DNA of 51,665 nt, from NCBI GenBank assembly GCA_017412765.1, contig JAFPWN010000038.1:1-51665 (forward strand), given 5' to 3'. The stretch is from Oscillospiraceae bacterium. GTDB taxonomy: Bacteria > Bacillota > Clostridia > Oscillospirales > Oscillospiraceae. Below are positions 12,257 to 29,778 of this stretch, in pieces. The notes below the pieces were generated by a model. The model ran no database searches and was not told the DNA's origin. It worked only from the letters and a program-made list of their open reading frames with translations. Both the position numbers and the translations under genes were made by a program. Every line of letters begins with the position of its first letter. Position 1 is the first letter of the stretch.

Positions 12257-12331
12257 ATGAGTAAGAAACTTACCAAGGTCATTGCTCTTGCACTGGCGCT
12301 CGTAATGGTACTCGCTCTCGCTGCCTGCGGC
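12241..12331 (+). repeat. 5' cassette shared with the second peptide-binding protein gene (copy 1)
   Basis: Ribosome-binding site plus signal-peptide codons. It matches 21351-21441 at 84 of 91 positions, including an unbroken 30-nt identity that begins at TGGAGGAAAT and covers the ATG and the codons for MSKK. Confidence 0.9.
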
Positions 12332-14485
12332 AACAACACCACCACGCCCGCAACCAACAACGAGACCCCCACTACCAATAACGACACCCCCGCAACCAAC
12401 AATGACACCCCCGCAACCAACAATGACACCCCCGCCACCACCCCCGATGAGCCGGATCCCGTAGAGGAAGAGCCTGCTTACCTCACCTTCGGCGAGGGCA
12501 CCTATGAGCGCGGCGACGACGAAGAGATCTATGACTGGGCTCTCGGCGGATACGCTGCTCTCCTCGACGAGGCAAAGGCCGCTTCCAGCATCAGCGAGAG
12601 ATTTGTTATCTTCGCTAAGGCTGAGGCTTACCTCCTCGACTCCGCTGTCATGATCCCGACCACCACCCAGGGCGGCGCCTACACCATCAGCCGTGTAGCT
12701 CCCCGTACCGTTCCTTATGTCCAGTGGGGCAACGATGACGATCGTCTCTTCGGCATGGTCATCTCCGATGAGTTCCTCACCCCGGCTGAGAGAGCTGATC
12801 TCTTTGCTATGTGGGACGAGGCTGTAGCTGCTCAGGATGCTTCCAAGTATGATCCTGCTGCTTACCTCGTAAGCAAGGGCCACACCATCCAGAACACCTA
12901 CGCTACCACCTTCCAGACTGCTCCTGTCACCATCGACTGGCTTAACACCTCTTCCCAGTCCGATACCGAGATCACCGTTAACTGCGTTGACGGCCTTGTT
13001 CAGTACGACGGCCTCAACATCATGAACGGCGCTCTTGCTGACAGCTGGACTGTTTCCGACGATGGTCTCACCTACACCTTCCACATCCGTGAGGGCGCTA
13101 AGTGGTACACCACCGAGGGCAAGGAGTATGCTGACGTTACCGCGGGCGACTTCGTTGCCGGCTTCCATCACATGCTCGACACCCAGGCCGGTCTTGAGTG
13201 GCTCGTTGAGGGCGTTGTAGCAGGTGCTTCCGAGTACCTCGCCGGCGGCTCCTTCGACGCTGTTGGCTACAAGGCAGTTGATGATCACACCCTCGAGATC
13301 ACCCTTGAGGCTCCGACCAGCTACTTCCTCACCATGCTCACCTACAGCTGCTTCCTTCCGATCTGCGACAGCTTCTATCAGGCACACGGCGGCGTTTACG
13401 GCATTGACGCTTTCGCTGCTGCTTCCGCTGACACCAACACCTATACCTACGGCAAGTCCGAGGACGTTGCTTCCCAGGTTTACTGCGGACCCTTCCTTCT
13501 TCAGAAGCTCCAGCAGGATTCCGAGATCGTCATTGTAAAGAACCCCAACTACTACAACGCAGACAAGGTTACCCTCGAGTCTGTCCGTTGGGTCTATGAT
13601 AACGGCGAGAACCCCCTCCAGACCTATGCTGACGTCGTTTCCGGCGTATATGCCGGCACCGGCCTCTCCGCTTCCACCGGCACCCTCGACGCTGCCAAGG
13701 AAGACGGCAACTATGACAAGTACGCTTACATCTCCGAGACCACTTCCACCTCTTACTTCGGCGGTCTCAACCTCAACCGCGGTACCTTCCAGCTCGAGGG
13801 CGGCGCTGTTGCTTCCCCGAAGACCGAGCAGGAGAAGATCGACACCGCAGTTGCACTCTCCAACAAGAACTTCCGCAAGGCTCTTCAGCACGCCTTCGAC
13901 AAGAAGACCTACAACGGCGTAAGCCGCGGCGCTGACCTTGCTGAGACCAACCTCCGCAACATGTACACTCACCCCGAGTTCGTTTCCATCACCGAGGATG
14001 TTACCTATGACGGTCACACCTTCGCTGCCGGTACCTTCTATGGCGATATCGTCCAGGCCTTCGTTGACGATCTCGGCTGCAAGATCACTGTTAAGGACCA
14101 GGTAGACGGCTGGTACAATGCTGACGCTGCCAAGGAGTACCTCGAGGCTGCCAAGGCTGAGCTCGGCGACGCCGTTACCTTCCCGATCAAGATCGACGTT
14201 GTTTACTACTCCGCTTCCGACGCCAACACCGCTCAGGCCAATGCTTACAAGGCAAAGGTTGAGGAGACCCTCGGCGCTGAGAACGTAGTCGTCAACCTCG
14301 TTGAGGCCACCACCTCCGCTGACTACTATGCTTCCGGTTACCGTGCATCCAACGGCGAGGCCGGCAACTTCGATATGTTCTACGGCTCCGGTTGGGGTCC
14401 TGACTACGGTGATCCTTCCACCTACCTCGACACCTTCCTCGGCGAGGGCGCTGGTTACATGACCAAGGTCATCGGCCTCTTCTAA
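12257..14485 (+). CDS. Peptide-type substrate-binding lipoprotein, apparently circularly permuted (system 1)
   Basis: 742 aa. Signal peptide and lipobox LAAC (Cys24), then four heptads of the type ATNNDTP (32-59). Residues 215-742 follow the SBP_bac_5 (OppA/DppA) order: NGALADSWTVSDDGLTYTF and HIREGAKW near the beginning, then VKNPNYYN, NFRKALQHAFDKK, and WGPDYGDPSTYLD just before the stop. The usual final ~120-residue segment is absent there. It is found instead at residues ~74-190: SERFVIFAKAEAYLLDSAVMIP followed by SRVAPRTVPY matches the canonical C-terminal 'R..lf.eAE..L...a..iP' element. All parts are thus present once, in rotated order. The gene uses strongly biased codons (GCT, ACC, TTC, GAC), suggesting high expression. 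It is followed by a hairpin and then oppB. Ligand unknown; oligopeptides are the default for the family. Confidence 0.85.
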   Translation: MSKKLTKVIALALALVMVLALAACGNNTTTPATNNETPTTNNDTPATNNDTPATNNDTPATTPDEPDPVEEEPAYLTFGEGTYERGDDEEIYDWALGGYAALLDEAKAASSISERFVIFAKAEAYLLDSAVMIPTTTQGGAYTISRVAPRTVPYVQWGNDDDRLFGMVISDEFLTPAERADLFAMWDEAVAAQDASKYDPAAYLVSKGHTIQNTYATTFQTAPVTIDWLNTSSQSDTEITVNCVDGLVQYDGLNIMNGALADSWTVSDDGLTYTFHIREGAKWYTTEGKEYADVTAGDFVAGFHHMLDTQAGLEWLVEGVVAGASEYLAGGSFDAVGYKAVDDHTLEITLEAPTSYFLTMLTYSCFLPICDSFYQAHGGVYGIDAFAAASADTNTYTYGKSEDVASQVYCGPFLLQKLQQDSEIVIVKNPNYYNADKVTLESVRWVYDNGENPLQTYADVVSGVYAGTGLSASTGTLDAAKEDGNYDKYAYISETTSTSYFGGLNLNRGTFQLEGGAVASPKTEQEKIDTAVALSNKNFRKALQHAFDKKTYNGVSRGADLAETNLRNMYTHPEFVSITEDVTYDGHTFAAGTFYGDIVQAFVDDLGCKITVKDQVDGWYNADAAKEYLEAAKAELGDAVTFPIKIDVVYYSASDANTAQANAYKAKVEETLGAENVVVNLVEATTSADYYASGYRASNGEAGNFDMFYGSGWGPDYGDPSTYLDTFLGEGAGYMTKVIGLF
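12350..12433 (+). repeat. Four 21-nt tandem repeats encoding a Thr/Asn/Pro linker
   Basis: Four in-frame copies encode A/T-TNN-E/D-TP heptads just behind the lipidated Cys. Copies 3 and 4 are almost identical in DNA. It is likely a flexible spacer between the membrane and the binding domain, and slippage could change copy number in steps of seven residues. Confidence 0.9.
12497..12826 (+). other. Displaced C-terminal-type segment of the SBP_bac_5 fold
   Basis: Encodes residues ~81-190. The order YDWALGGYAALLDEA, then the ERF...AEAYLL...IP element, then SRV...PY and a closing TPAERADLFAMWDEA helix is what normally closes an OppA-type domain. Here it precedes the canonical N-terminal part, which starts near codon 215 (12899). 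Confidence 0.7.
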
Positions 14486-14515: not shown

Positions 14516-14553
14516 ATACATAGCTGGACCTCGGTCCAGCTATGTATTGTTTT
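14516..14553 (+). terminator. Terminator-like hairpin between binding protein and oppB (system 1)
   Basis: A perfect 15-bp stem (14516-14530 with 14533-14547) with a minimal loop is followed by TGTTTT. It sits 31 nt behind the binding protein stop. Since permease genes follow without a clear new promoter, it probably allows partial read-through, keeping membrane components below the binding protein. Confidence 0.7.
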
Positions 14554-14719: not shown

Positions 14720-16303
14720 ATGAGAAAATACATGCTCAAGCGCATACTGTTTTCGATATTCTCCCTTCTCGTCGTTATAGCCGTCGTAATGGTGCTCGTT
14801 TTCTCACTCATTGAGCGCAGCGTCATTTTCCAGACCGATGACACGTGGAACAAGAAGTCGAACAACGACCGCATCATCTATGAGTACACGCAGTACTCAA
14901 AGTATCAGTATCTGAACTACGTTGACTTCACGACCTACGTCGGAAATATCTACGCCGAAAAGCTCGGTCCGAACTACGGCACCGATCCCGATTTCATAAA
15001 GGACTCGAAGTCCGTTCAGTACGCCACAACCTACCTTGACAACGAGCTTGTGCAGAAGTTCATCAAGGAGTACAAGGACAAGGGCTATGAGATCCGCTAC
15101 CTTGAGCCGATAAAATTCAAGAGCGGCAAGACCAAGCCCGGCGGAAACGGCTACTTGATTGCCATTCAGGAGAAGAACGTCCTTCTCCGCCTGTGGGATT
15201 ACATCATCCATTTCATCACCGTTGAAACGACGAACGACGTTCAGGATCCGAATCTCAAAGAGCGCAATATCCGCTTCGAGGCCGACCCGTACGGCGGACC
15301 GTTTGCCTTAGTCGGCTCGGGAACGACGCATAAGTACCTCTTGTACTTCAATAACCGCTTCCCGTTCATCCATCAGAACTGGCTGCACATCAACCTCGGC
15401 ACCTCCTATACCACCTACCGCGGTCAGGAGATCACCGACGTTATCAATAACCCGACAGGCGACCTCATAACCTCGCGTCAGCAGTATCCGGCGCTTCTCG
15501 GCTCCGATGAGTTTGAGGAAACCGCGATCGACTTCCACTCCGTTACTTATAATAAGGGCACTATCTCCGACTTCGAGAAGAGCCTCTTCACTGACGGCTA
15601 CACCGTTTATAAGTACACCCGCGGCGGTCTCAGCATGATCGAAAACTCCTTCGTCATCGGACTTATCGCAGTCGTGATCGCCTATGCTCTCGGTCTGCCT
15701 CTCGGCATGCTCATGGCGCGCCGCAAGGACAGGCTCGGAGATAAGATCGGAAACGCATACATTATCTTCATTATGGCAGTTCCGAGCCTCGCGTACATCT
15801 TTATGTTCGCAGCAATCGGAACGAGCGTCTTTAACCTGCCGTACAAGTTCGCAAACGCGGAGGTCAAGGTACTCGCCTACGTTCTGCCGATACTCTCACT
15901 CTCTGCCCGTGACGTCGCAAACCTCATGAAGTGGATGCGCCGCTACATGATCGACCAGATGAACTCCGACTACGTCAAGTTCGCCCGCGCCGAGGGTCTT
16001 TCCGAGAGAGAGATCTACAATATCCACATTTCCAAGAACGCGATGATCTACCTTGTCCACGGTATCCCCGCGACCATCCTCGGTTGCCTCACAGGAGCCA
16101 TTATCACAGAGCGCGTCTACTCCGTTCCCGGTATCGGCAACCTTCTGACCACCGCTCTCAACCGCCACGACAACGGCGTTATCGTCGCCTGCACGGTCTT
16201 CTATACCGCGCTTTCCATCATCTCGCTCATACTCGGCGACCTCCTGCTCGCCGCCTACGATCCGCGAATCAGCCTTAACGAGGATAAAGGAGGTGGACGC
16301 TGA
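14720..16303 (+). CDS. oppB: Peptide ABC transporter permease OppB/DppB with large extracytoplasmic insertion (system 1)
   Basis: 527 aa, against ~305-320 for ordinary OppB. Residues 1-30 form the first membrane helix. Residues ~35-300 are a hydrophilic, Tyr-rich extracytoplasmic domain. Residues ~305-515 hold the remaining helices, with the coupling (EAA) loop around KFARAEGLSEREIYNIHISKNA and the family motif ERVYSVPGIGNLL near the end. Long OppB loops are known in some Firmicutes, where they may contact the binding protein; that role is inference here. The stop overlaps the next ATG by one base (TGATG). The start ATG is the only one that includes the full first helix. Confidence 0.88.
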   Translation: MRKYMLKRILFSIFSLLVVIAVVMVLVFSLIERSVIFQTDDTWNKKSNNDRIIYEYTQYSKYQYLNYVDFTTYVGNIYAEKLGPNYGTDPDFIKDSKSVQYATTYLDNELVQKFIKEYKDKGYEIRYLEPIKFKSGKTKPGGNGYLIAIQEKNVLLRLWDYIIHFITVETTNDVQDPNLKERNIRFEADPYGGPFALVGSGTTHKYLLYFNNRFPFIHQNWLHINLGTSYTTYRGQEITDVINNPTGDLITSRQQYPALLGSDEFEETAIDFHSVTYNKGTISDFEKSLFTDGYTVYKYTRGGLSMIENSFVIGLIAVVIAYALGLPLGMLMARRKDRLGDKIGNAYIIFIMAVPSLAYIFMFAAIGTSVFNLPYKFANAEVKVLAYVLPILSLSARDVANLMKWMRRYMIDQMNSDYVKFARAEGLSEREIYNIHISKNAMIYLVHGIPATILGCLTGAIITERVYSVPGIGNLLTTALNRHDNGVIVACTVFYTALSIISLILGDLLLAAYDPRISLNEDKGGGR

Positions 16304-17262
16304 TGCCGAAGAAGAATAATATCAATCAGGACGAGCTGTTCCGCTTTATTGACAGCGATACGATATCCTCGGAGAAGATCACGGCTCCGCGTTACAGCTA
16401 CTGGAAGAGCGTTTTCCGCGTTTTCTTCCGCAAAAAGATCAATATTTTCCTCATTTTTGCTATGGCGTTCATCCTGCTCTCCGCGTTCATTCTGCCGAAC
16501 TTCTGGTACTATGACTACATGGAGAACGTCACCGACCCCACGACCTTCAACCTCAATCCCGCGCAGGCGATGGAGCGCTTCGGCGGAGACATAAAGTGGG
16601 TGCTCGGCACCGGCCCGTACGGTAACTCCATCATGTACGGTATCGTCTCCTCCGCGAGAACGAGCCTTCTGCTTGCGATCATCTGCGCCGCCATCAATAT
16701 GGTGGTCGGAATCATCGTCGGCGCGATCTGGGGCTACTCCAAGAGAGTCGATCAGGTCATGCTCGTCGTCTACAACATCGTTGCGAACGTTCCGTACCTG
16801 CTTCTCGTTTCCGTTCTCGTCTACGTCATCGGCTCCGGCTTCTGGAGCTTCGTGTGCGCGCTGACGATCACCGGCTGGCTCGGAATCGCCTACTTCTTCC
16901 GCACGCAGGTCATGATCATCCGCGACAGAGAGTATTCTCTCGCGTCCCGCTGCCTCGGCACGCCTGTTCTCCGTGTTATCAACAAGAACATCCTGCCGTT
17001 CCTCACGAGCGTTATCGTGACCCTGCTCGCAACCGAGCTTCCGAGCTACATCTCCATGGAGGTGTTCCTCTCCTTCATCGGCGTAGGTCTTTCCGCCGAG
17101 GTCCCGAGCCTTGGCCGAATGATCAGCCAGGCGCAGACCGCGTTCCTCTCATATCCGTGGGAGTTCTGGCCGCCGGTCGCAATCGCTTCGGCAATCACCA
17201 TTATTCTCTACGTTCTCGGTCAGAACCTGGCTGACGCCTCTGACCCGCGTACCCACATGTAA
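16303..17262 (+). CDS. oppC: Peptide ABC transporter permease OppC/DppC (system 1)
   Basis: 319 aa, normal length. A cytoplasmic N-terminal tail (~1-45) precedes the first helix (IFLIFAMAFILLSAFI). The usual GTDxxGRD motif before the second helix is replaced by GTGPYGNSIMYG, but the following SARTSLLLAI matches. The coupling loop is LASRCLGTPVLRVINKNILP. The C-terminal portion has EVFLSFIGVGLSAEVPSLGRMI, a hallmark of OppC. The GGAGGTGG upstream and one-base overlap show translation coupled to oppB. It pairs with OppB to form the channel. Confidence 0.9.
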   Translation: MPKKNNINQDELFRFIDSDTISSEKITAPRYSYWKSVFRVFFRKKINIFLIFAMAFILLSAFILPNFWYYDYMENVTDPTTFNLNPAQAMERFGGDIKWVLGTGPYGNSIMYGIVSSARTSLLLAIICAAINMVVGIIVGAIWGYSKRVDQVMLVVYNIVANVPYLLLVSVLVYVIGSGFWSFVCALTITGWLGIAYFFRTQVMIIRDREYSLASRCLGTPVLRVINKNILPFLTSVIVTLLATELPSYISMEVFLSFIGVGLSAEVPSLGRMISQAQTAFLSYPWEFWPPVAIASAITIILYVLGQNLADASDPRTHM

Positions 17263-17274
17263 GGAGGAGAGACT

Positions 17275-19071
17275 ATGTCAGAACAGAATGAAAAAAAGGT
17301 CCTCCTCTCCCTTAAGGACGTCGTAGTCAAGTTCAACGTCCGCGGAAGGATACTTACCGCTATCCGTAACGTAAGCCTTGACATCTATGAAAACGAATCC
17401 CTCGCCATCGTCGGCGAGTCCGGCTCCGGAAAATCCGTTCTCACAAAGACCTTCGCCGGTATGCTCGAGACTAACGGCTTTATCCCGCAGGGCAGCATAA
17501 TCTTTTCCGACGACTCCCTCTCCGAGACAAACGTCAAAATCGAGGGCAGAAACGAGCACGTTTTCAACTACTCCATCAATATGCTCAACTCCCTTTCGCC
17601 CCTTGAGCGCGGCGCAAAGGAGTACCTCGCTATCGTCGAGAAGAAGAACGCGATCAAGTATGCCCAGAGCATGACTCCCGACGAGGAAGCCGACTACAAC
17701 CTGAGAATCAAGGAGCTTGCGGACGACATCGTCGATTCCAACAACTATCTCTGGACTCTCGATAAGAAGGCGGACGCCGCCGAATATCAGAAAACCAGCG
17801 ATAAGATCAAGAATCTCGGCGTTGAGAAGGCAAACCTTGAAAAGGAGAAGGCGGAGCTTATCAAAAAGCGCGCCGCCGAATACAAGGCGGACTCCGCAAG
17901 GCAGGCAAAGGATCAGAAGGAGCTTCACGATCTTGAGGAGCTCAGAGCGAAGAAGATCGCAAAAGAGGACAAGGCGGGCAACCCGCACGGACTGTCCGAC
18001 GAGATTCTCGAGCGCAATAAGCTCATCGCATACGAGATCGTCCTCTCCATCGGCCGCTATCCCTTCTACAGTCAGATAAAGCATCTTCTGAAGCTCAAAA
18101 AGGCATTCAAAACCGCCATGGAGATCGGAGCTAATCTTGATTCCTCTAAGGTAAAGAACGATATCTTTGATACCACCACCTTCCGCGTCGCCTTCCGCGA
18201 CTACAACGAGGAGACGAAGAACGTCCACGGCTACGCCATCATCGACTGCGCCAAGGTCAAGTTCACGAAGGACTGGCAGCAGATCCGCGGCTGCCGCATC
18301 GCAACCGTTTTCCAGGACCCGATGACCTCGCTGAACCCGGTAATCACCATCGGAAAGCAGATCCAGACCGTTATTCTGAAGCACCAGAAGTGCTCCAAGA
18401 GCGAGGCTTACGAGCGCACTATCGACATCATGGGCAAGGTCGGCATCCCCGACCCCGAAAAGCGCTTCAACGACTATCCCTTTGAGTATTCCGGCGGTAT
18501 GCGCCAGAGGATCGTTATCGCGATCGCGCTCTCCTGCCAGCCGAAGATACTCATCTGCGATGAGCCGACGACCGCTCTCGACGTTACCATTCAGGCGCAG
18601 ATCATACGCCTTATCAAGGATCTTCAGCACGAGCTCGGCTTCACAACCGTCTACATCACCCACGACCTCGGCGTTGTTGCAAACGTCGCTGAGCGCGTCG
18701 CGGTGCTCTACGGCGGTCAGATCGTGGAGCTCGGCACGGTCGAGGATATATTCTACGATCCGCGCCACCCCTACACCTGGGCGCTTCTCAGCTCGCTTCC
18801 GCAGCTGAGCGAAAAGGGCACCGACCTCTTCTCAATCCCCGGAACGCCGCCCTCTCTCTATAACAAGATTGTCGGCGACGCGTTTGCGCCGAGATCCAAG
18901 TACGCCATGGCGATCGATATGGTCGAGGAGCCGCCGATGTTCAAGGTCAGCGACACCCACTATGCCAAGACGTGGCTGCTCGATCCGAGAGCGCCTAAGC
19001 AGGAAATTCCGGAGAATATCCAGAATCTCCACGAAAAGATGAAGAAAACCCACGTAAATTTTGATGATTAA
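17275..19071 (+). CDS. oppD: Peptide ABC transporter ATPase OppD/DppD with ~250-residue insertion (system 1)
   Basis: 598 aa, against ~330-350 for ordinary OppD. Walker A GESGSGKS (47-54), Q-loop [11 protein letters not shown] (345-355), signature YSGGMRQR (405-412), Walker B ILICDEP (425-431) and H-loop H463 are all intact. Between Walker A and the Q-loop, residues ~81-332 are an extra domain. Its middle (~165-230) is rich in Lys, Glu and Ala with heptad-like spacing and is probably coiled coil. The C-terminal oligopeptide/dipeptide segment (GTPPSL, then HYAKTWLL near 562-569) lacks the usual Fe-S type cysteines. The second system's OppD has a comparable insertion at a different point. The insert's role is unknown. 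Confidence 0.9.
17515..18270 (+). other. Coiled-coil-rich insertion in OppD of system 1
   Basis: Encodes residues ~81-332 between Walker A and the Q-loop, where ordinary OppD proteins have about 20-25 residues. Composition is strongly Lys/Glu/Ala with few Gly or Pro. It has no Walker or signature copy of its own, so it is not a second ATPase domain. Confidence 0.8.
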
Positions 19072-19082
19072 GGAGGCGGAAC

Positions 19083-20027
19083 ATGGATAATAACGAAAAA
19101 CAGGTTCTGCTCTCCATTCAGAATCTCGACGTAGTTTTCGGACGCGGCAAAAAGGCTTTCAAGGCTGTTGACAATGTGTCCTTCGACATCTACAAGGGCG
19201 AAACGCTCTCTCTCGTCGGCGAGTCCGGCTCCGGCAAGACCACCATCGGCAGAGCCATCGTCCGCATAAACCCCTGCTCCGCCGGCGCCATCTACTACGA
19301 CGGTAAGAAGATCTCCGGCAAGCTCAGCCGCAAGGACGACCGCGAGGTCATCCGCAAGATCCAGATGATTTTCCAGGATCCCGCGGCATCCCTCAACGAG
19401 CGCGCGACCATTGAGTACATCATCTCCGAGGGCCTTTACAACTTCCACCTTTTCAAGGATGAGAAGGACAGGATCGCAAAGGTTGAGAACGTAATCCGCG
19501 AGGTCGGACTTCTTCCGGAGCACCTTACCCGCTATCCGCACGAGTTCTCCGGTGGTCAGCGCCAGCGCGTCGGCATTGCGAGAAGCATCGTCATGGAGCC
19601 GGAGTTCATCGTCGCTGACGAGCCTATCTCCGCTCTCGACGTTTCCATTCGCGCGCAGGTTCTGAACCTGCTTAAGAAGTTCCAGGTAGAGCGCGGCCTC
19701 ACCTATCTCTTTATCGCCCACGATCTGTCAATCGTAAGATTCATCTCCGACAGGATCGTCGTTATTTACAAGGGCAGAATAATGGAGATAGCGGAGACTG
19801 AGGAGCTTTTCAGCTACCCGCTGCACCCCTACACGAAGTCGCTTATCTCAGCTATTCCTATTCCCGATCCTATAATCGAGAAGGAGAAAAAGCTCTTCGT
19901 TTACGAGCCTGAGAAGATGCACGATTACTCAAAGGAGCAGCCCAGCCTTGTGGATATCGGAAACGGCCACATGGTTTTCGGCTCCCCGAGCGAGATCGAA
20001 AAGTATAAGGCTCAGCGCTTCGGATAA
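19083..20027 (+). CDS. oppF: Peptide ABC transporter ATPase OppF/DppF (system 1)
   Basis: 314 aa, normal length. Walker A GESGSGKT (46-53), Q-loop [11 protein letters not shown], signature FSGGQRQR, Walker B FIVADEP and H-loop IAHDLS are intact. It is expected to form a heterodimer with OppD that drives peptide import. The gene starts 11 nt after oppD with AAGGAGG and ends before a terminator at 20042, closing the operon. There is no insertion here, in contrast to OppF of system 2. Confidence 0.93.
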
Positions 20028-20080: not shown

Positions 20081-21202
20081 ATGAAAGCTAAAAAGCCATA
20101 CGAGGAGATAACCGTCTCCTCAAAGCACCTGCCGCTGCGCATCGCACTCTTTGCGCTCGCAATCGTCATTGCCGCCGGATCGATCGGCTTCGGAGTAAGT
20201 CAGCTCGGCAGAAAAGACCCGGGCTGGTACACGATAAATGCCGCAGCCGACTCTGACGCGGTCATGTACGCAAACGGCATAAGATTTGAATACTACATGG
20301 ACGGCTCGTCCGATATGATAAAGGCGGCTCTGCGCCTTATCGAGGAGCAGTATTCAGCGGCGCTCGCAAAGGCGTACAAGGAGACCGATCCCGCGACAGT
20401 TTATCCCGGAATCGGCAATCTCGCCGCGCTGAACGCGGGGGAGAGCGTGAAATGCTCGCCGGAGCTGTTCGCGATACTGAAGGACGCCTACGCGAAAACG
20501 CTTGAGGGGCGCGGCTTCAATATGTTTGCCGGCGCCTATTACGCGGAGTGGAACAGCATAATCTACTCAAACGACCCCGACTCATACGACCCCGCGAACA
20601 ATGAGAATGAGCGCGCGCGGCTTGAGGCGATCGGCAGCGCTGTCAACGACCTCGACAACTTCACTCTGACGCTCGACGAAGCGACGCTGACCGCCTCGCT
20701 CACCGTCTCGGACTCATACAAGGCGCTCGCTTCGGAACTTGAGATAGAGGCGGGGGCGCTCGATCTGAATCTTCTGCGCGACGCATATATGCTCAGCGCT
20801 GTGAAGGCGGAGCTTGAATCGGAGGACTGGCACCGCGGCTACTTTGCGACGGAGAGCGGACTCGGAGTTTATCTGTCTGAGTGCGACGGCGGCAGGATCG
20901 ACGTTTTCGGCGCGGGTGAGGAAGCCGTAGGAGCAATCAACGTCGCCGCCGGCGACTCTCTTTCGATGTTCCGCGCCTTCGGATATTATGAGGCGGCAGG
21001 GGAGCTGAGAAGCCCGTATTACACCGCCAACGGCTCCTTCGGCTCGCCGCTCACGCAGGTCATTACGCTCGATGAGGGCGGAAGCGCCGTTGACTGCGCC
21101 TATCACAACGTAAAAATGCTCGATTCGCGCTCGCCGGAGAAGGGGAGCTATACCGTTCTCTATACGCTGAGCGGTGAGGAAGTCCTCAGAGCGGCTGAAT
21201 AA
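20081..21202 (+). CDS. Membrane-anchored extracytoplasmic protein, possibly a degenerate ApbE-like fold
   Basis: 373 aa. A short cytoplasmic tail is followed by one membrane helix (~20-42) and a large exported domain; there is no lipobox. The segment LNAGESVKCSPELFAILKDA and the following FNMFAGAY resemble the 'in..a.....vs.el..ll..a......G.f.p..g' element of ApbE flavin transferases. SPYYTANGSFGSPLTQVITL could correspond to the ApbE 'H.idP.tG' region, with the catalytic residues absent. This is a weak structural guess, and no activity is claimed. The ATG has no Shine-Dalgarno and lies immediately behind a terminator hairpin, so expression would be low or depend on read-through. A terminator follows at 21209. 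Confidence 0.55.
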   Translation: MKAKKPYEEITVSSKHLPLRIALFALAIVIAAGSIGFGVSQLGRKDPGWYTINAAADSDAVMYANGIRFEYYMDGSSDMIKAALRLIEEQYSAALAKAYKETDPATVYPGIGNLAALNAGESVKCSPELFAILKDAYAKTLEGRGFNMFAGAYYAEWNSIIYSNDPDSYDPANNENERARLEAIGSAVNDLDNFTLTLDEATLTASLTVSDSYKALASELEIEAGALDLNLLRDAYMLSAVKAELESEDWHRGYFATESGLGVYLSECDGGRIDVFGAGEEAVGAINVAAGDSLSMFRAFGYYEAAGELRSPYYTANGSFGSPLTQVITLDEGGSAVDCAYHNVKMLDSRSPEKGSYTVLYTLSGEEVLRAAE

Positions 21203-21208
21203 TTATTC

Positions 21209-21236
21209 ACTCCTCCGCATTAAGCGGAGGAGTTTT
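21209..21236 (+). terminator. Rho-independent terminator
   Basis: A perfect 10-bp stem ACTCCTCCGC (21209-21218) with 21224-21233, loop ATTAA, followed by TTT. It separates the orphan gene from the second peptide importer. Confidence 0.8.
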
Positions 21237-21258
21237 GCGCATACAGGGCAATTTGTCC

Positions 21259-21287
21259 TTGCATAAGAGCAGACTTTGTGATAAAAT
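21259..21287 (+). promoter_or_regulatory. Predicted sigma-A promoter of peptide importer 2
   Basis: -35 TTGCAT (21259-21264), 17-nt spacer, -10 TAAAAT (21282-21287). The leader would be about 73 nt, much shorter than that of system 1. Confidence 0.7.
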
Positions 21288-21350
21288 AAACTTTAACCGC
21301 ATTGAAGCGCTGAAATTGTTAAAAAACGCCGAGTGCGTTAAAATTTTTAT

Positions 21351-21441
21351 TGGAGGAAATGGAAACATGAGTAAGAAACTCACCAAGGTCATCGCTCTTG
21401 CGCTGGCGCTCGTTATGGTGTTCGCTCTTGCTGCCTGCGGC
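21351..21441 (+). repeat. 5' cassette shared with the first peptide-binding protein gene (copy 2)
   Basis: Pairs with 12241-12331 (84 of 91 identical). The conserved part includes non-coding bases around the ribosome-binding site, so protein-level selection alone does not explain it. Confidence 0.9.
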
Positions 21442-23916
21442 GGTACCACTACCACCACGCCGGAGCAGAACGAGACTCCGAAAAACGACACCCCCGCGAC
21501 GAACGATACCCCCGCAACCAACAACGACACCCCCGCGACTGAGGACACCCCGGCTGCCCCGCTTACCTACACCTATCAGGATTCCGTAAGCACCATGGCG
21601 ACCAACTGGAATCCCCACACCTATCAGACTACTGATGACAGCTATCCTGCCGACTTCCTTCGCGCCGGTCTTTACAGCTTCATCTACAACGATGAGCTTC
21701 ACCCCCTCGAGGGCAAGGATCCCTACACCGGCTACGTTATCGTTCCCGAGATGGCGGCTGATATGCCCGTTGACGTCACCGAGCAGGTAAAGGCTGAGCA
21801 CCCCGAATTCGGCATCCCCGAGTCCGCGACCGCCGGCTATGCCTACACCATCGACCTCAATCCGCTCGCTACGTGGGAGGACGGTACCCCCATCAACGCT
21901 GATACATACGTCTACTCCATGAAGAAGCTCCTCGATCCGGCACTTCTCAACTACCGCGCCGCTGACTACTATGCACAGGGTCTCTCCATCGCGGGCGCTG
22001 AGAACTATGCCAATCAGGGCAAGCTCGAGTACGGCGCGATCGGAGTTACCACCACCGAGTACCTCGCAAACGGCGGCGCCGTCGAGGATCTCTACGTCGA
22101 CGCTTACGATTTCTGGAATGCGGACGCCTCTTATCTTGACGAGGCGGGCAACGCCCTTCAGCAGTACGTCTCCGTACTTGACGAGACAGTTTACGGCGCG
22201 AACGTAGACGACGCCTTCAGCGGCAAGCAGCTCTATGATGAGTATCTCGGCGCAGGCGCAGCCTACGAGGCATATTCTCCCGATGAGCTCTACACCGTAA
22301 CCGGCCAGTACGCCACCGGCCTTGACTACGACAGCACCGTCGGCCTTTACAAGTCCGGCGAGTATCAGATCACCATCGTATTCGCAAAGAGCCTCGCAGG
22401 CTTCAACCTCCTCTACAACCTCGGCTCCAACTGGATCGTCAAGGAAGACCTCTATGAGGCAAACCTCAAGGAGTCTGAGGGCGTATGGAGCTCCACCTAC
22501 AACACCAGCGTAGAGACCACCTCTTCCTACGGTCCCTACAAGATGACCGTTTATCAGGCGGACAAGTTCATGAAGTTCGAGAAGAACGAGAACTGGTACG
22601 GCTGGACTGACGGCAAGCACGTCTACGTCGATCCCGAGGACGGCGAGACTTATCCGATGTATCAGACCACCGCTATCGAGTGCGAGGTCGTTCCTGAGGC
22701 TGAGACCAACAAGCTTATGTTCCTCAAGGGCGAGCTTATGGGCTACGGTCTCCAGGCCGAGGACTTCGCCACCTACCGCAACTCCGATTACGTTTACTTC
22801 ACCCCGGATGAGACCATATTCTTCCTCATCCTCAACGGCTATAAGGATGCCATCGAGGGCCGCGAGAAGGCTGAAGATTTTGACACCGCCACCCGCGATC
22901 TCCAGATGCTCCTGAACCTCAACTTCCGCAAGGCTATCGCCGTTACCTATGATAAGGAGCTTTTCGCATCCACCGTTTCCCCGGCTCGTTCCGGCGGCTA
23001 CGCTATCATCGGCAACGCTTACGTCTATGATCCCGAGACCGGCGCTATGTACCGCGATACCGATCAGGCAAAGCAGGCTCTCTGCGACTTCTACTCCGTT
23101 GATCTCGCAGCCTTCAACGGCGACCTCGACGCTGCCGTCGCCTCCATCACCGGTTACGATCCCGAGACCGCAAAGACCCTCTTCGGCGAGGCGTTCACCG
23201 AGGGACTTGAGGCGGGCTACATCACCGACGCCGACAATGACGGCAAGTGCGATCAGGCCATCGTTATCGAGTACTCCCTCTCTTCCGATTCCGACTTCAT
23301 GACCAAGACCATCGACTACCTCAACGAGAAGATGAACGAGGTCACCGCCGGCACTCCGTTCGAGGGCAAGGTGAGCTTCACAAAGTCCGCGCCTTACGGC
23401 AACGACTGGTCCAACAAGCTTAAGGCAGGTCTTGCCGACACCGCTCTTGCCGGTTGGTCCGGCTCCAGAATGGATCCGTTCAGCCTTACCGATCTCTACG
23501 TCAACCCGAGCTATCAGTACGATGCAGGCTGGTTTGACGCCACCAAGGTCGATCTCACTCTCACCATCGAGGGCGAGGAGCTCACCATGAACCTCCGCGA
23601 CTGGTCTGACGCTCTTAACGGCGCCACCGTTACCGCTCCGAACGGCAAGGATTACTGCTTCGGCGACGGTATCGCAGACGTTGAGACCCGCCTCACCATC
23701 CTTGCCGCGATCGAGGGCAAGGTCCTCGGTACCTACGACTACATCCCGATGCTCCAGAACGCCTCCGCTGCGCTTCTCTCCAAGCAGGTGTTCTACGTCG
23801 TCGAGGATTGGAACCCGATCATGGGCCGCGGCGGCATCACCTATATGAAGTATAACTACGACGACGCCGCCTGGGCTGAGTACGTAGCTTCTCAGGGCGG
23901 CACTCTTACCTATTAA
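21367..23916 (+). CDS. Peptide-type substrate-binding lipoprotein (system 2)
   Basis: 849 aa, much longer than the usual ~550 of the SBP_bac_5 family. The lipobox LAAC is followed by a Thr/Pro/Asn linker with NDTPAT units. The order of elements is canonical: YTYQDSVSTMATNWNPHT near the N-terminus, then WEDGTPINADTYVYSMKKLLDP, NENWYGW, NLNFRKAIAVTYDKELF, and at the C-terminus ETRLTILAAIEGKVLGTYDYIP, which is where the related segment of the system 1 protein is missing. Extra length comes from inserts around residues 240-340 and 560-630; the latter contains DADNDGKCD (621-629), an EF-hand-type DxDxDGxxD loop. The start at 21367 is set by TGGAGGAAA and the signal peptide; the open frame before it is not supported. 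Confidence 0.87.
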   Translation: MSKKLTKVIALALALVMVFALAACGGTTTTTPEQNETPKNDTPATNDTPATNNDTPATEDTPAAPLTYTYQDSVSTMATNWNPHTYQTTDDSYPADFLRAGLYSFIYNDELHPLEGKDPYTGYVIVPEMAADMPVDVTEQVKAEHPEFGIPESATAGYAYTIDLNPLATWEDGTPINADTYVYSMKKLLDPALLNYRAADYYAQGLSIAGAENYANQGKLEYGAIGVTTTEYLANGGAVEDLYVDAYDFWNADASYLDEAGNALQQYVSVLDETVYGANVDDAFSGKQLYDEYLGAGAAYEAYSPDELYTVTGQYATGLDYDSTVGLYKSGEYQITIVFAKSLAGFNLLYNLGSNWIVKEDLYEANLKESEGVWSSTYNTSVETTSSYGPYKMTVYQADKFMKFEKNENWYGWTDGKHVYVDPEDGETYPMYQTTAIECEVVPEAETNKLMFLKGELMGYGLQAEDFATYRNSDYVYFTPDETIFFLILNGYKDAIEGREKAEDFDTATRDLQMLLNLNFRKAIAVTYDKELFASTVSPARSGGYAIIGNAYVYDPETGAMYRDTDQAKQALCDFYSVDLAAFNGDLDAAVASITGYDPETAKTLFGEAFTEGLEAGYITDADNDGKCDQAIVIEYSLSSDSDFMTKTIDYLNEKMNEVTAGTPFEGKVSFTKSAPYGNDWSNKLKAGLADTALAGWSGSRMDPFSLTDLYVNPSYQYDAGWFDATKVDLTLTIEGEELTMNLRDWSDALNGATVTAPNGKDYCFGDGIADVETRLTILAAIEGKVLGTYDYIPMLQNASAALLSKQVFYVVEDWNPIMGRGGITYMKYNYDDAAWAEYVASQGGTLTY

Positions 23917-23936
23917 TTTTTGAATATTCAAAAATT
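23915..23936 (+). repeat. Perfect 22-bp palindrome over the binding protein stop codon
   Basis: An A/T-rich self-complementary sequence centred on GAATATTC begins at the last two bases of the TAA stop of the system 2 binding protein. It could be a weak hairpin or a protein site. It is followed by a T-rich stretch (23941-23950). Confidence 0.6.
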
Positions 23937-23947
23937 ACGGTATTTTT

Positions 23948-23990
23948 ATAGTTGCAGGGGCCTAAAAACCCCTGCAACTATTCCCGTTTT
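23948..23990 (+). terminator. Terminator-like hairpin between binding protein and oppB (system 2)
   Basis: A perfect 13-bp stem (23948-23960 with 23969-23981) and 8-nt loop are followed by TCCCGTTTT. As in system 1 it lies shortly behind the binding protein gene and before oppB with no new promoter visible, which fits an attenuating terminator. Confidence 0.65.
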
Positions 23991-23998
23991 CAGCGACC

Positions 23999-24042
23999 GG
24001 TTTTTGCGAAAGAGCCGGAAGCTCCGACCTTTCGCAAAAACC
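23999..24042 (+). promoter_or_regulatory. Long hairpin in the oppB leader (system 2)
   Basis: GGTTTTTGCGAAAG (23999-24012) pairs perfectly with 24029-24042, and CGGA/TCCG extends the stem inside. No T tract follows. Its position matches the hairpin at 14581-14644 in system 1 although the sequences differ. Confidence 0.6.
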
Positions 24043-24070
24043 AGTCAGAATGTTCCACCGGAGGTAAACT

Positions 24071-25024
24071 ATGGGCAAATACGTTGTGCAGAGAATTGCG
24101 CTTATGCTCTTCACTCTGCTGATAATCACCCTTATATGCTTCGTTCTGGTGCGTATGCTGCCGCCCGCTGAGCTTCCGCTCAACGACCCGCACACCGCAG
24201 TTATCGAGGCAAGGCGCGAGGCGCAGGGCTACAACAAGCCGTATCTCGTGCAGTTCGGCATCTTCCTTCGCAATATCTTCACAAAATTCGACTGGGGTCT
24301 CAGCGATAAGCTGTACTTCGGTCAGAACGTCGCGGATATCTTCCTTCAGAAGCTGCCAGCCACCGTTTTCACAAATCTCTACTCCATAATCCTCAGCATA
24401 CCCATCGGAATCGGACTCGGTATCTGGGCGGCGCTCAAGAAGAACACGTGGATTGACTACTTCATCTCTACCGTCACGATGGTTGTCATATCCGTGCCGA
24501 GCTTCGTCTTTGCGTTCATCATCCAGTACGTTCTGAGCTATAAGCTCGGCTGGTTCCCGTTCCTCATGAAAGCCGGCACCGACTGGCTGAGCTGGGATAT
24601 GTTCGTTTCCATGCTGCCCGCGGTCATGAGCCTCTCGTTCGGCGTTATCGCAGGCTTCACGAGAACGACCCGCGCCGAGCTTACCGAGGTGCTGACGAGC
24701 GAGTTTATGCTGCTCGCCCGCACTAAGGGACTGACAAAGGCGCAGGCGACCATACGCCACGCGCTCAAAAACTGCGCCGTAGTCATCGTCCCCGCGATCT
24801 TCGGTGAGTTTATCGGCATTATGTCCGGCTCGCTCGTAATCGAGAAGATCTTTGCCATCCCCGGCGTCGGAAACCTCTACCTCAACGCAATAAACGCGCG
24901 CGACTACAACATATTCATGCTCGACTCCTGCTTCTATACCGCCGTCGGACTTGCCGCCGGCATCGTCGTCGATATAAGCTACGGCTTCATCGACCCGAGA
25001 ATCAGAATGGGCAGCAAAAAGTAA
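24071..25024 (+). CDS. oppB: Peptide ABC transporter permease OppB/DppB (system 2)
   Basis: 317 aa, ordinary OppB length, without the insertion seen in system 1. The first helix (IALMLFTLLIITLICFVLVRML) is followed by a short extracytoplasmic segment. The coupling loop is around LLARTKGLTKAQATIRHALKN, and EKIFAIPGVGNLYLNAI is the family motif near the C-terminus. The ribosome-binding site CGGAGGT lies 7 nt upstream of the ATG. With OppC (25044) it forms the channel. Confidence 0.92.
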   Translation: MGKYVVQRIALMLFTLLIITLICFVLVRMLPPAELPLNDPHTAVIEARREAQGYNKPYLVQFGIFLRNIFTKFDWGLSDKLYFGQNVADIFLQKLPATVFTNLYSIILSIPIGIGLGIWAALKKNTWIDYFISTVTMVVISVPSFVFAFIIQYVLSYKLGWFPFLMKAGTDWLSWDMFVSMLPAVMSLSFGVIAGFTRTTRAELTEVLTSEFMLLARTKGLTKAQATIRHALKNCAVVIVPAIFGEFIGIMSGSLVIEKIFAIPGVGNLYLNAINARDYNIFMLDSCFYTAVGLAAGIVVDISYGFIDPRIRMGSKK

Positions 25025-25043
25025 GAGAAAGGAGAATTTTTAC

Positions 25044-26567
25044 ATGGAATATGAGCACATTCCGGCTGAAAAGTTCGCCTTTACTCAGATGGACGCCAGC
25101 CTGCACGATACGAAGCTCGAGACTAAATCCCGCAGCTACCTTGCGGACGCATTTCTGCGCTTCCGCAAGAACAAATCCTCCGTCGTCGCGGCGATAATTA
25201 TCGCGTTTCTGCTTATTTTTGCGATCCTCAGCCCGCTGATCTCGCCTTATACGATCGAGCAGAAGGACAAGTTCTACCAGTCCTACGGCCCCTTCGTGCG
25301 CCAGATAGCCGATATGAAGCTCGGCATTTTCGACGGCGCCACGATCCGCCCGAGCCAGAACGAGAAGAGTATGCTCTACTGGCGCGGCATCGCGGAGGAG
25401 ACCGGCATGGATCCGCTTCTCAAAATAGTCGAAACGACGACCACGAAGGTGCTCTACCGCGGCAAGGAGCGCGATGAGTATACCTACACTATCGAAACGA
25501 ACCAGTACTACGAAAAAGGCATAATCTACCTCGTGCTTAGCTATGACGAGTTCGAGCGCATTCAGGCGTGGCAGGATGAGACGGGCATTCAGGTCATCTA
25601 TCCCTACGTCGATCCCGCCGATATCCACGGCATTACCGACCACCCGAATATCTGGTACAAGGTCGATAAGTCCGGCGCAGCGCAGCCCGATAAGGACGGA
25701 AATCTCGTACCCGTCTATTCCACCAAAACCCAGAACACCGGCGCAGAGTACCACTCCCTGAGGATCGCCGGTGACGACGGAAGCTACGTCTATTCCACCG
25801 CCAAGAGCGGAGCGGTACAGTGCCGCGTCTGCTACTACAACTATTATCAGTATCTCTACGGCCACGAGCCGATGTACCTCATGGGCACGAACTCCATGGG
25901 CCAGGATCTCTTCATGGCGATAGGCGTCGGCGCGAGATTTTCGATAATCTTCGCAATCTGCGTTTCCGCGATCAACCTCTTCCTCGGCGCAATCTACGGC
26001 GCTGTCGAGGGCTATTACGGCGGCGCGATCGATATGACGATGGAGAGAATATCCGATATACTCTCCGGCATACCCTTCGTCGTTGCTACGACGCTCTTCC
26101 AGCTCCACCTTGCGCAGAAGGTCGGCGTTGTGCCTTCGTTCCTCTTTGCCTACGTAGTGACGGGCTGGATCGGCATGGCTGCGCTGACGCGCAAGCAGTT
26201 CTACCGCTTCAAGGGTCAGGAGTTCATCCTCGCCGCACGCACGCTCGGCGCGTCCGACGGCAGACTGATGTTCAAGCACATCTTCCCGAACTCGATCGGC
26301 ACTATCATCACGAGCGTCGCTCTCGTTATCCCCGGAGTCATCAGCTCCGAGACCCAGCTCACCTACCTCGGGATCATCAATCTATCCGACTTTGCCGGCA
26401 CCAGCATCGGCACGCTTATGAGCCAGGGGCAGGTCGCCATGACGAGCGCGCCACACGCGATATTCTTCCCGTCGCTGTTCGTTTCACTGCTTCTTATTTC
26501 GTTCAACCTCTTCGGAAACGGCCTGCGCGACGCCTTTAACCCGACTACGAGAGGGGAGGATGACTGA
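25044..26567 (+). CDS. oppC: Peptide ABC transporter permease OppC/DppC with large extracytoplasmic insertion (system 2)
   Basis: 507 aa, against ~290-320 for ordinary OppC. The first helix is at ~47-65. Residues ~72-276 are an extra extracytoplasmic domain rich in Tyr and charged residues. The canonical OppC sequence resumes with LMGTNSMGQDLFMAIGVGAR (279-298), a variant of GTDxxGRDxFSRxxxGAR. The coupling loop is LAARTLGASDGRLMFKHIFP, and the C-terminal half has the usual helices. This is the reverse of system 1, where OppB carries the extra domain. The stop overlaps the next ATG by one base. Confidence 0.9.
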   Translation: MEYEHIPAEKFAFTQMDASLHDTKLETKSRSYLADAFLRFRKNKSSVVAAIIIAFLLIFAILSPLISPYTIEQKDKFYQSYGPFVRQIADMKLGIFDGATIRPSQNEKSMLYWRGIAEETGMDPLLKIVETTTTKVLYRGKERDEYTYTIETNQYYEKGIIYLVLSYDEFERIQAWQDETGIQVIYPYVDPADIHGITDHPNIWYKVDKSGAAQPDKDGNLVPVYSTKTQNTGAEYHSLRIAGDDGSYVYSTAKSGAVQCRVCYYNYYQYLYGHEPMYLMGTNSMGQDLFMAIGVGARFSIIFAICVSAINLFLGAIYGAVEGYYGGAIDMTMERISDILSGIPFVVATTLFQLHLAQKVGVVPSFLFAYVVTGWIGMAALTRKQFYRFKGQEFILAARTLGASDGRLMFKHIFPNSIGTIITSVALVIPGVISSETQLTYLGIINLSDFAGTSIGTLMSQGQVAMTSAPHAIFFPSLFVSLLLISFNLFGNGLRDAFNPTTRGEDD

Positions 26568-28723
26568 TGGAAAATAAGCTTTCAGTGCGCGATCTGCGCG
26601 TTTCCTTCCGCACAACGAACGGCAAGGTGCAGGCTGTGCGAGGCATCAGCTTCGACCTTGCGAAGGGTGAAACTCTCGCCATCGTCGGTGAGTCCGGCTC
26701 CGGAAAGAGCGTAACGAGCAAGGCGATACTCGGCATACAGGCGGCAAACGCCATCACCGAGTCCGGCGAGATCATCTACGACGGCAAGGATCTCCTCAAG
26801 ATCAGCGAGGAGGACTTCCACAAGATACGCGGCGACAAGATCTCGATGATATTCCAGGACCCGATGAGCTCGCTGAACCCGATAGTCAAGATCGGAAAGC
26901 AGCTCACCGAGGCGATGATCCTCAAGGGCAAAGCCCGCCAGAAGGAGAGCCGCGCAAACTTCAATACTTATCTCAAAAACCTCGATAAGCGCACCGGCGA
27001 AGCGCTCGGCGACGAGGCGAAAAAGGCAAAATTCTCCAAGCAGTGCAAGGATTTCGATACCTTTGAGTTCCGCCACGTCAAGCTCGAGGGCGAGTTCAAC
27101 CGCGCGAAGGAGGCCGCAGTCGAGGGCAGCGAGGATATTGAGCTTCTTGCGTTTGAGCTTGAAAAGAACGCCGCAAAGGACGTCACTTTCCGCGTGAATA
27201 CTATCTGCTCGCGCGCCAAGGCGTCGCTTCACGAGTACGTCGTCGCGCATGACAAGGCGGAAGAGCTTATGAGCCTTGCCGAGAGCGTCAAAAAGGCGGC
27301 TCCCGCCGCGGCCAAGGGCGGCGACACTGCCGCGATCACAGCAGACCTCAACAAGATGAAGGCAATTTTTGACGATGCGATCGCAAAGCCCGCGCCGGAT
27401 TTCTTCCGCATGGGCTACTACATCGTTTTCTCCGGAAAGAGCCTGCCAGATATGCCCGTTCCGCAGATGAACGAGGAGCTTCTCCGCTATCTCGACGATA
27501 ATTTCATGAAGGAGTTTATCTCCTCGGCTGAAAAGGGTATCCGCCGCTCCGCCGACGTTTCCTACGAAAAAATGGAGCGCGCGATCGCCGTCCTCAAGGA
27601 GAAGAGAAGCGTTTTCGAGCGCGAAAGCCTCGATAAAAAAGAGGCTTATGCCGCGCACAAGGCGATGACCTCCGCGGTTGAGGCGACGATCGACCACCTG
27701 AAGCTCGTCAAGGACAGCTTTTCATACACCTTCGGGCCGAGCGTTAAGAGCGAGCTTGAGCGCTATTTCGGCGCTATCTCCAAAAACGCCGAGGCTATAC
27801 GCCGCCACGATAAGCAGCAGCGCAAGTATGATCGCTTGGTTGAGAAGGGCAAGACGCCGGACTGGAAGGTTGCGGAGGCGTCCATCACCGATATGGAGCT
27901 TGTCAAGGCAAATATAATCCACATCATCGACCGGCTTGCGGAGCATTATGCCGAGCTTCTTGCCGAGCGAAAGAACCGCGACTATGCCGCGGAGACCATC
28001 GCCGCCATCGACTACCTCAAGGAGAACGCCACCGGCGTCGCCGCGAAGGTCACGAAGCGCATAGCAAAGGACAGAGCGATAAAGCTTATGGACGAGGTCG
28101 GCATAGCAGAGCCGCGCAAGAGGTACAATCAGTACCCGTTCGAGTTCTCCGGAGGTATGCGCCAGAGAATAGTTATCGCCATCGCCCTTGCCGCAAATCC
28201 GGATATTCTGATCTGCGACGAGCCGACGACGGCGCTCGACGTGACAATTCAGGCGCAGATACTTGAGCTTATAAACAAGCTCAAAAAGGAGCGCGACCTC
28301 TCGATAATCTTCATCACCCACGACCTCGGCGTCGTCGCCAATATGGCGGATAGAGTCGCCGTTATGTACGCGGGCAAGATAGTGGAGTACGGCACCGCCG
28401 AGGAGATCTTCTACGATCCGCGCCACCCGTACACCTGGGCGCTTCTCAGCTCCATGCCAGACCTCGATACGAAGGAAAAGCTGGAGTCCATCCCCGGAAC
28501 GCCGCCGAATATGATCTATCCGCCGAAGGGCGACGCCTTTGCCGCGCGCAACAAGTACGCGATGCAGATAGACTTCGAGGCTCAGCCGCCGCTGTTCAGG
28601 GTCACGGATACGCACTATGCCGCGACGTGGCTGCTGCACCCGGACGCTCCGAAAATCGAGCGGCCGAAGATAATCTCAGAACGCATTGAGAGAATGAAGG
28701 AAAAGAGAGGTGAGTCGAAATGA
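26567..28723 (+). CDS. oppD: Peptide ABC transporter ATPase OppD/DppD with ~370-residue insertion (system 2)
   Basis: 718 aa, about twice the ordinary length. Walker A GESGSGKS (41-48), Q-loop [11 protein letters not shown] (95-105), signature FSGGMRQR (527-534), Walker B ILICDEP (547-553) and H-loop H585 are intact. The extra ~370 residues (about 122-495) lie after the Q-loop and before the signature, that is within the helical subdomain, whereas the system 1 insertion precedes the Q-loop. The insert is Lys/Glu/Ala-rich, mostly helical, with likely coiled-coil stretches (~330-365, ~395-425). The helical subdomain faces the permease, so it may change coupling or provide a docking platform (inference). 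The C-terminal HYAATWLL element matches system 1. Confidence 0.9.
26930..28051 (+). other. Insertion in OppD of system 2
   Basis: Encodes residues ~122-495, between the Q-loop segment (QLTEAM) and the [13 protein letters not shown] helix that leads to the signature. It contains no nucleotide-binding motifs and no membrane helix. I see no sequence resemblance to the system 1 insertion beyond composition. Confidence 0.8.
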
Positions 28724-29778
28724 GCGAAAAAGAAGTTCTTCTCGACGTACAGCACCTCGGAATGTACTTCGGAAGCGGCGCCGGCGCGCTCAGAGCCGTC
28801 GATGACGTTTCGTTTCAGATCCGCAGGGGCGAGGTTTTCGGACTTGTAGGCGAGTCCGGCTGCGGAAAAACGACGACCGGCCGCACAATAATCCGACTCT
28901 ACAACGCCTCCTCCGGCAGCGTGTATTTTGACGGCGTACGCATCGTCGCAGGCACCGCGAGCTATTACGAGGAGATCGATTCCGTCAGGGAAAAGCTCAA
29001 AAAGGGCGAGATCGACAAGGCGTCCGCCGATAAGCGCATCGCCGAGCTAAAGGAGGAGATCGCCTCCGCGAAGCGCGATCACAAGGCGGCGAAAAAAGAC
29101 CTCGTAACACAGATACAGATGATATTCCAGGACCCGATCGCCTCGCTGAATCCGCGAATGACGGTACGCGAGATAATCGCAGAGGGTCTTATAATCCGCG
29201 GCGAGAAGGATAAAAAGGTCATCGACGAGAAGGTCTATGAGATGCTCGAGCTTGTCGGACTTGTCCGCGAGCACGCCTCGCGCTATCCGCACGAGTTCTC
29301 CGGCGGTCAGCGCCAGAGGATCGGAATAGCCCGCGCGGTCATCATGAACCCTGAGCTGCTCATCGCCGACGAGCCGGTCTCCGCGCTCGACGTTTCGATC
29401 CAGGCGCAGGTAATAAACCTGTTAAACGAGCTTCGTGAGCGCCTCGGACTTACGATACTCTTCATCGCCCACGACCTCAGCGTTGTCAAATACTTCTCCG
29501 ACCGCATCGGAGTAATGTACTTCGGCAAGATGGTCGAGATGGCGTCGTCCGACGAGCTGTTCGCGCATCCGATCCACCCGTACACGCGCTCGCTGCTCTC
29601 CGCGATCCCGCTGCCCGACCCGATCTATGAGAAGAGCCGCAAGAGGATCGTCTACAATCCGCTCGCCGAGCACGATTACTCCGCTCAGAAGCCGACCTTC
29701 CGCGAGATAATCCCCGGTCACTTCGTAAGCTGCAATGACGCCGAGGAAGCAAAGTACAGGAAGGAATTTAACCTGTGA
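28720..29778 (+). CDS. oppF: Peptide ABC transporter ATPase OppF/DppF with short coiled-coil insertion (system 2)
   Basis: 352 aa. Walker A GESGCGKT (44-51), Q-loop IFQDPIASLNP (135-145), signature FSGGQRQR, Walker B LLIADEP and H-loop IAHDLS are intact. About 45-50 extra residues (80-128) between Walker A and the Q-loop are highly charged (EKLKKGEIDK, then AELKEEIASAKRD) and probably form a helical hairpin. The ATG overlaps oppD by 4 nt (ATGA). The stop overlaps the GTG of the next gene by 4 nt, so the small membrane protein is translated from the same message. Confidence 0.92.
   Translation: MSEKEVLLDVQHLGMYFGSGAGALRAVDDVSFQIRRGEVFGLVGESGCGKTTTGRTIIRLYNASSGSVYFDGVRIVAGTASYYEEIDSVREKLKKGEIDKASADKRIAELKEEIASAKRDHKAAKKDLVTQIQMIFQDPIASLNPRMTVREIIAEGLIIRGEKDKKVIDEKVYEMLELVGLVREHASRYPHEFSGGQRQRIGIARAVIMNPELLIADEPVSALDVSIQAQVINLLNELRERLGLTILFIAHDLSVVKYFSDRIGVMYFGKMVEMASSDELFAHPIHPYTRSLLSAIPLPDPIYEKSRKRIVYNPLAEHDYSAQKPTFREIIPGHFVSCNDAEEAKYRKEFNL

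Follow-up and report, generated by a model that had tools for sequence, protein, structure and literature searches.

Permuting binding proteins is a familiar engineering trick, and circular permutation is already known in binding-protein classes other than the oligopeptide-binding (OppA) class. Glycine betaine-binding, molybdate-binding and CysB proteins are related by circular permutation (PMC2395249), and TpMglB-2 (Tp0684), classed as “Type Ic / Cluster Bc”, is a circularly permuted lipoprotein that binds glucose; its authors propose the label “c” for the permuted subclass and an adaptation to tethering (PMC4990184). Among oligopeptide-binding proteins, AliD has been divided into Domain I (residues 29–63, 191–296 and 583–617), Domain II (64–190) and Domain III (297–582), with helix alpha19 at 622–652; the amino end of the peptide is held by AliD W498 and D501, while E524 and T528 of AmiA line the pocket for its second residue (PMC11192437). 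Here we describe a gene at positions 12257..14485 (+ strand) of a 51,665-nucleotide stretch of DNA from an Oscillospiraceae bacterium (contig JAFPWN010000038.1, hereafter the window), whose product is a real, conserved and widespread permutant of an oligopeptide-binding protein. As far as we searched, an OppA-class case appears to be new: among the matches listed for permutation together with binding-protein or transporter terms, a search outside which most subscription literature lies, none reported a permuted OppA-class protein by title or opening abstract.

The open reading frame (ORF), 742 amino acids as translated, very probably encodes a natural circular permutant of an AmiA/Ali-type protein, putatively the peptide binder for the OppBCDF importer encoded downstream. 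Its core occupies residues ~211–742, and the C-terminal segment of the family is placed ahead of it, at ~84–192. A search with phmmer against all PDB chains gave AmiA, AliC, AliB and AliD as the best four sequences, and the three alignments printed (AmiA, AliC and AliB) each consist of two domains in reversed order. For AmiA (8a42) the core at 212–727 aligns to chain positions 13–497 (270.7 bits) and the segment at 91–180 to 519–612 (21.5 bits, independent E-value 4.9e-4); for AliC (8qlh) the corresponding pairs are 212–729 to 11–494 and 86–190 to 509–617 (40.0 bits, 1.3e-9), and for AliB (8qlj) 210–736 to 4–497 and 96–186 to 515–606 (20.0 bits, 0.0014). The segment also matches the closing segment of the family in hhalign (99.5%, E 2.4e-22) and positions 788–886 of the profile NF043077 (E 6.5e-7). 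The region 3' of the ORF does not hold a second copy of the segment; there a hairpin, read by eye, follows the stop codon. The only family above the Pfam threshold is SBP_bac_5 (PF00496, OppA/AmiA-type), spanning residues 258–732 and profile positions 4–365 of 368 (E 3.9e-48, 164.9 bits against a cut-off of 32.4), which matters for annotation, since the displaced segment is left without a label.

A preliminary description of this DNA, made from the sequence alone, had placed the closing segment before the core, which the reversed phmmer alignments bear out. The location holds, while the start it gave, residue 74, does not, as the homologous part begins at ~84–91; nor does the chain stop just after STYLD, as had been stated, since 17 more residues follow (reaching 26 past the Asp of WGPD) in a conserved tail, ...GYMTKVIGLF. 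The protein of the second system in the window, put forward as an internal control, does carry ETRLTILAAIEGKVLGTYDYIP near its C-terminus in translation, and a stronger control is given by 43 ORFs (35 distinct) whose match to a hidden Markov model (HMM) of the segment lies after the core.

The protein, assigned from translation, Pfam, phmmer, HMMs, tree and model, is a lipoprotein whose parts all lie on the + strand, with the former closing segment first and the old termini joined via ~20 residues. A signal peptide and lipobox with Cys24 (12257..12328; translation and a pattern census of relatives) lead into an Asn/Thr/Pro-rich low-complexity tether, residues ~25–82 (12329..12502; translation and low model confidence). 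The displaced segment, residues ~84–192 (12506..12832; phmmer, hhalign, NF043077), holds the end of Domain III (two helices), the last piece of Domain I and the terminal helix by the published domain limits (PMC11192437). The join of the old C-terminus to the old N-terminus comprises residues ~193–211 (12833..12889; phmmer and model), and the core, residues 212–742 (12890..14482; Pfam, phmmer, VIA and HMMs), contains Domains I and II, most of Domain III and the new C-terminus. W713 and D716 of the core, which form the W-x-x-D peptide-amine motif, are invariant in 84 aligned permuted rows, as are W157, G158 and D160 within PYVQWGNDDDR (residues 153–163, 12713–12745). The loop bearing QWGNDDDR may be linked to the ligand.

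The position of the cut is also well conserved: in 93 of the 125 permuted ORFs scored (not de-duplicated) the chain end lies 26 residues beyond the WGPD Asp, and in the rest 23–32 residues beyond it. In one canonical relative (L203) the chain continues past the break point (...GYYLKAMGLG-EVGEDGK...) and enters the segment. In the VIA alignment, model residue 683 (protein residue 742) falls on AmiA 533 and AliD 526, and in the phmmer alignment residue 91 falls on AmiA chain position 519, or approximately entry residue 540 if a constant offset is applied, so that almost nothing has been lost or doubled at the cut. Judging by the published limits, the break would fall inside Domain III, in lobe 2, within ~10 residues in sequence of the second-residue pocket (PMC11192437).

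The same arrangement recurs widely. From a scan of GTDB genomes we kept 80 loci of 103 relatives, and the segment precedes the core in all 77 that hold the 5' part of the gene, down to 52% identity; the other three (L115, L116 and L118) begin inside the core, at a contig end. Record titles of the relatives name deer, goat, sheep, water buffalo, horse and other samples from many assembly projects, and their labels include Clostridia, Lachnospiraceae, Oscillospiraceae, Erysipelotrichaceae, Bacilli and Spirochaetales, among others. The permuted form was present in 13 of 34 genomes drawn from the genus, 11 of 200 from the family (one, G133, cut by the contig start), 23 of 394 from the order, 5 of 391 from the class and 2 of 398 from the phylum, in draws that overlap, each include the source genome and differ in E-value limit, those from family and phylum being judged by query span and the HMM classes of loci. 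The search of relatives for both chain orders that had been proposed found both: with segment and core HMMs, the ORFs of 224 loci divide into 128 permuted (115 distinct), 43 canonical and 30 core-bearing without a segment match, distinct counts being given because loci from separate scans overlap. None of these 201 core-bearing ORFs has the segment at both ends. The rearranged form is common to many gut and rumen bacteria.

An AlphaFold2 prediction made with the 84 permuted proteins as alignment reached a mean predicted local distance difference test score (pLDDT) of 92.4 and a predicted template modelling score (pTM) of 0.88. At the tether end, model residues 1–12 (protein 60–71), pLDDT lies below 50. 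The join region is ordered in the model, with a short helix at protein residues 200–206, and the two strands of the segment are formed (block pLDDT 94 and 96), followed by the loop with QWGNDDDR (block pLDDT 72) and a helix at model residues 117–133 that alignment position equates with alpha19 of the AmiA/Ali proteins. Predicted alone, the segment reaches a pTM of 0.47 and its strands are not assigned, so that in prediction it does not fold as a domain of its own. AliD, AmiA, AliC and AliB head the rankings of both Foldseek and VIA, with core identities of 31–36%; the root-mean-square deviation of 28 in the AliC rows arises because the AliC crystal is a domain-swapped dimer. The titles among the matches listed are of peptide-, nickel-, heme/glutathione- and opine-binding proteins, which does not exclude the classes absent from them.

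In a tree of the core from 29 permuted and 27 canonical proteins, for which no root was inferred, the permuted proteins form one side of a branch (100/98, 200/200 bootstraps) and adjoin the canonical proteins L132–L134 (same bacterial family) and L152; the remaining 23 canonical proteins lie farther off. Wherever in the canonical part the root is placed, a single permutation event is simplest. Spirochaete, Erysipelotrichaceae and Bacilli copies stand among or beside Clostridia copies, a mixed placement that suggests horizontal transfer. Most simply, then, the permutation would have been fixed once and then spread among gut Bacillota and Spirochaetota. A tree of the segment likewise unites the permuted rows (100/99).

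The product is most likely the working peptide-binding protein of the OppBCDF importer. It would take up the usual two-lobed Venus-flytrap fold, bind peptides by their free amino end via W713 and D716, and deliver them to the importer encoded downstream. With the break inside Domain III, the tether of lipoprotein members would leave lobe 2, so that signal peptide, tether and lipid would sit near the second-residue subsite in sequence; in canonical proteins the tether would instead leave Domain I of lobe 1 (PMC11192437). The preliminary description had the anchor moving to another face of the protein; a break in lobe 2 is consistent with this, and the long tether may leave the geometry loose. 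Among the 111 distinct permuted proteins whose leader can be read (4 more are cut), a loose pattern found a lipobox-like Cys in 93. In several members that lack one, hardly any sequence separates the signal peptide from the segment, and the mature chain would therefore start right at the break. In two canonical proteins (L161 and L163) an extra stretch of ~120 residues separates the signal peptide from the core; it contains an internal repeat, and we take it to resemble the N-terminal domain of copper amine oxidase.

Several observations weigh against this account. The Foldseek and VIA alignments begin at about model residue 140 and take in the core alone, a sequential alignment being unable to include the segment too, so its predicted placement draws on model confidence, the strands and a shallow coevolution signal; the segment by itself gave no significant fold match. 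In that signal (mean-field analysis of 115 permuted proteins, effective number 72), the strongest segment-core pair is 89–742, the two new chain ends, with 742 being the last column, where the alignment is least sure. Of the top 100 pairs, 63 join parts of the same canonical domain against a base rate of 42% (at most 58 under shifted labelings) when the last helix is grouped with Domains I and II, and 37 do not fit, the domain limits being mapped by hand and several of the top pairs sharing the same few columns; as it stands, coevolution leans toward the canonical domains. The segment tree does not group the permuted rows with L132–L134, and its basal forks are unresolved. As for the shift of anchor, 18 of the 111 proteins have no lipobox (e.g., L066, L081, L084 and L108), a count in which the pattern missed a Cys in L080 and may have wrongly credited L074 with one. 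By a stricter pattern the Cys lies 6–107 residues before the segment (median 50) in 91 permuted proteins and 8–140 before the core (median 24) in 29 canonical proteins, and the longer tethers weaken any claim of a fixed orientation.

It is important to consider what else could produce such a chain. An assembly or annotation error that swapped the order of two gene pieces is conceivable in a source assembly of 74 contigs whose lipoprotein leaders are alike (80% over residues 1–69 with the protein of the second system), but the C-terminus is conserved among permuted ORFs, and the same order recurs in all 77 relatives that are informative, which come from many separate assemblies and host animals; this excludes misassembly for practical purposes and leaves an artefact with a negligible chance. 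It is very improbable that the displaced segment is an added domain with a role of its own and that the core lives without a closing segment. QWGNDDDR is conserved in the permuted clade and was not noticed in those canonical rows read, and the segment alone matches DUF6253 weakly, below threshold (E 4e-4, 20.6 bits; cut-off 25); the homology to the closing segment seen with hhalign and NF043077, the one-for-one complement at the cut, the strands that form only in context and the coevolution consistent with canonical domains all speak against such a role.

A further case is segment replacement, in which an N-terminal piece was acquired by recombination from a second, paralogous binding protein and the original C-terminal piece lost, giving a permuted chimera. 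The stem of the permuted clade is long for the segment (0.85 changes per column against 0.23 for the core), its tree does not set the clade beside the core-tree sisters, tandem binding-protein genes exist (contig 68 of genome G008), and the same idea was raised for the permuted portion of TpMglB-2 by its authors (PMC4990184). The core-tree sister grouping is nevertheless not rejected for the segment by the approximately unbiased test (p 0.47), on 106 columns that give little power either way, so a chimera is possible, and we regard it as unlikely. The support for a natural circular permutation, as first proposed, comes from sequence, phylogeny and synteny, and also from a confident model and coevolution. 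Duplication with partial loss is a textbook route to a permutation, and fission with fusion is another (PMC3320104); tandem duplication and partial loss may be the origin here, with no intermediate among the 201 ORFs.

Downstream of the gene come the hairpin, which by eye is a perfect 15-bp inverted repeat with a 2-nt loop and then a T-rich run (14516..14547, +; terminator-like), and oppB, oppC, oppD and oppF, all on the + strand. These encode an OppB/AmiC-like permease of 527 residues with its permease domain only in residues 325–518 (14720..16303), an OppC-like permease (16303..17262), an OppD-like ATPase with an insertion of ~230 residues between Walker A and the Q-loop (17275..19071) and an OppF-like ATPase (19083..20027). 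The hairpin separates the binding-protein gene from the permease genes. Of the 80 loci scanned, 8 have under 2.5 kb of sequence after the gene; in each of the other 72 a relative of this OppB follows within 900 bp. Canonical sisters L180–L182 have the same operon order. The OppD insertion is common to other permuted-protein operons, the spacing from Walker A to Q-loop being 283–284 in L186–L188 against 51 in L180, L182, L189 and L191; L181 and L190 could not be cleanly measured, and their tblastn layout leaves no room for it. This OppD matches NF043079 (mollicute OppD by name) nearly end to end, at 691 bits, below the cut-off of 740. The two NF profiles presumably represent genes of the minimal mycoplasma syn3, judging by their names. 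NF043077 (mollicute OppA) is canonical, with core start at 39–136, core end at 661–737 and segment at 788–886 of 896, so the insertion is separate from the permutation.

Beyond this operon, 20081–21202 encodes a 373-residue protein with an N-terminal hydrophobic stretch that matches no Pfam (best E 0.058) or NCBIfam family; two further permuted operons, L187 and L188, hold relatives with 26% identity. By eye it may resemble ApbE-like proteins. A second complete Opp system adjoins the first at 21235–29778, with an SBP_bac_5 binding protein followed by OppB-, OppC-, OppD- and OppF-like ORFs, read by eye.

Since operons of the same order, within one bacterial family, begin with a permuted protein in some cases and a canonical one in others, the two forms offer natural pairs, and thereby a natural test of folding and tethering, in which one can ask if capture and docking depend on where the chain ends and where it is tethered. 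We suggest more tentatively that a single ancient permutation founded a large, overlooked OppA-type subfamily whose lobe-2 tether alters how the protein hangs from the membrane or docks to the permease, and that it was advantageous and passed between gut phyla; this is possible, though doubtful in its entirety.

Compared with known systems, the protein resembles AmiA, AliB, AliC and AliD in its homologous core, its W-x-x-D motif and a closing segment with a terminal helix, and resembles the pneumococcal Ami system in its partnership with two permeases and two ATPases, and it differs from them in a rotated chain, broken inside Domain III, that makes the terminal helix internal (PMC11192437). 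The terminal-helix stretch is acidic here, whereas the AmiA/Ali helix has a basic outer face (PMC11192437); over at most 30 residues, and computed as the net charge of the stretch alone, the mean is −3.5 in 101 permuted ORFs and −2.4 in 27 canonical ones, many of which are shorter. The mollicute OppA/OppD pair shares the OppD insertion and has a canonical OppA, unlike here. The betaine, molybdate and CysB family is likewise ligand-binding, and differs in being related at <24% identity, found by structure and not of the peptide-binding class (PMC2395249). TpMglB-2 is similar as a natural circular permutation of a tethered binding protein of an ATP-binding cassette (ABC) system, found in Spirochaetes and Gram-positives, and would differ in its Cluster B sugar-binding fold and in the part that moved, strands of its N-lobe lying near the C-terminus (PMC4990184).
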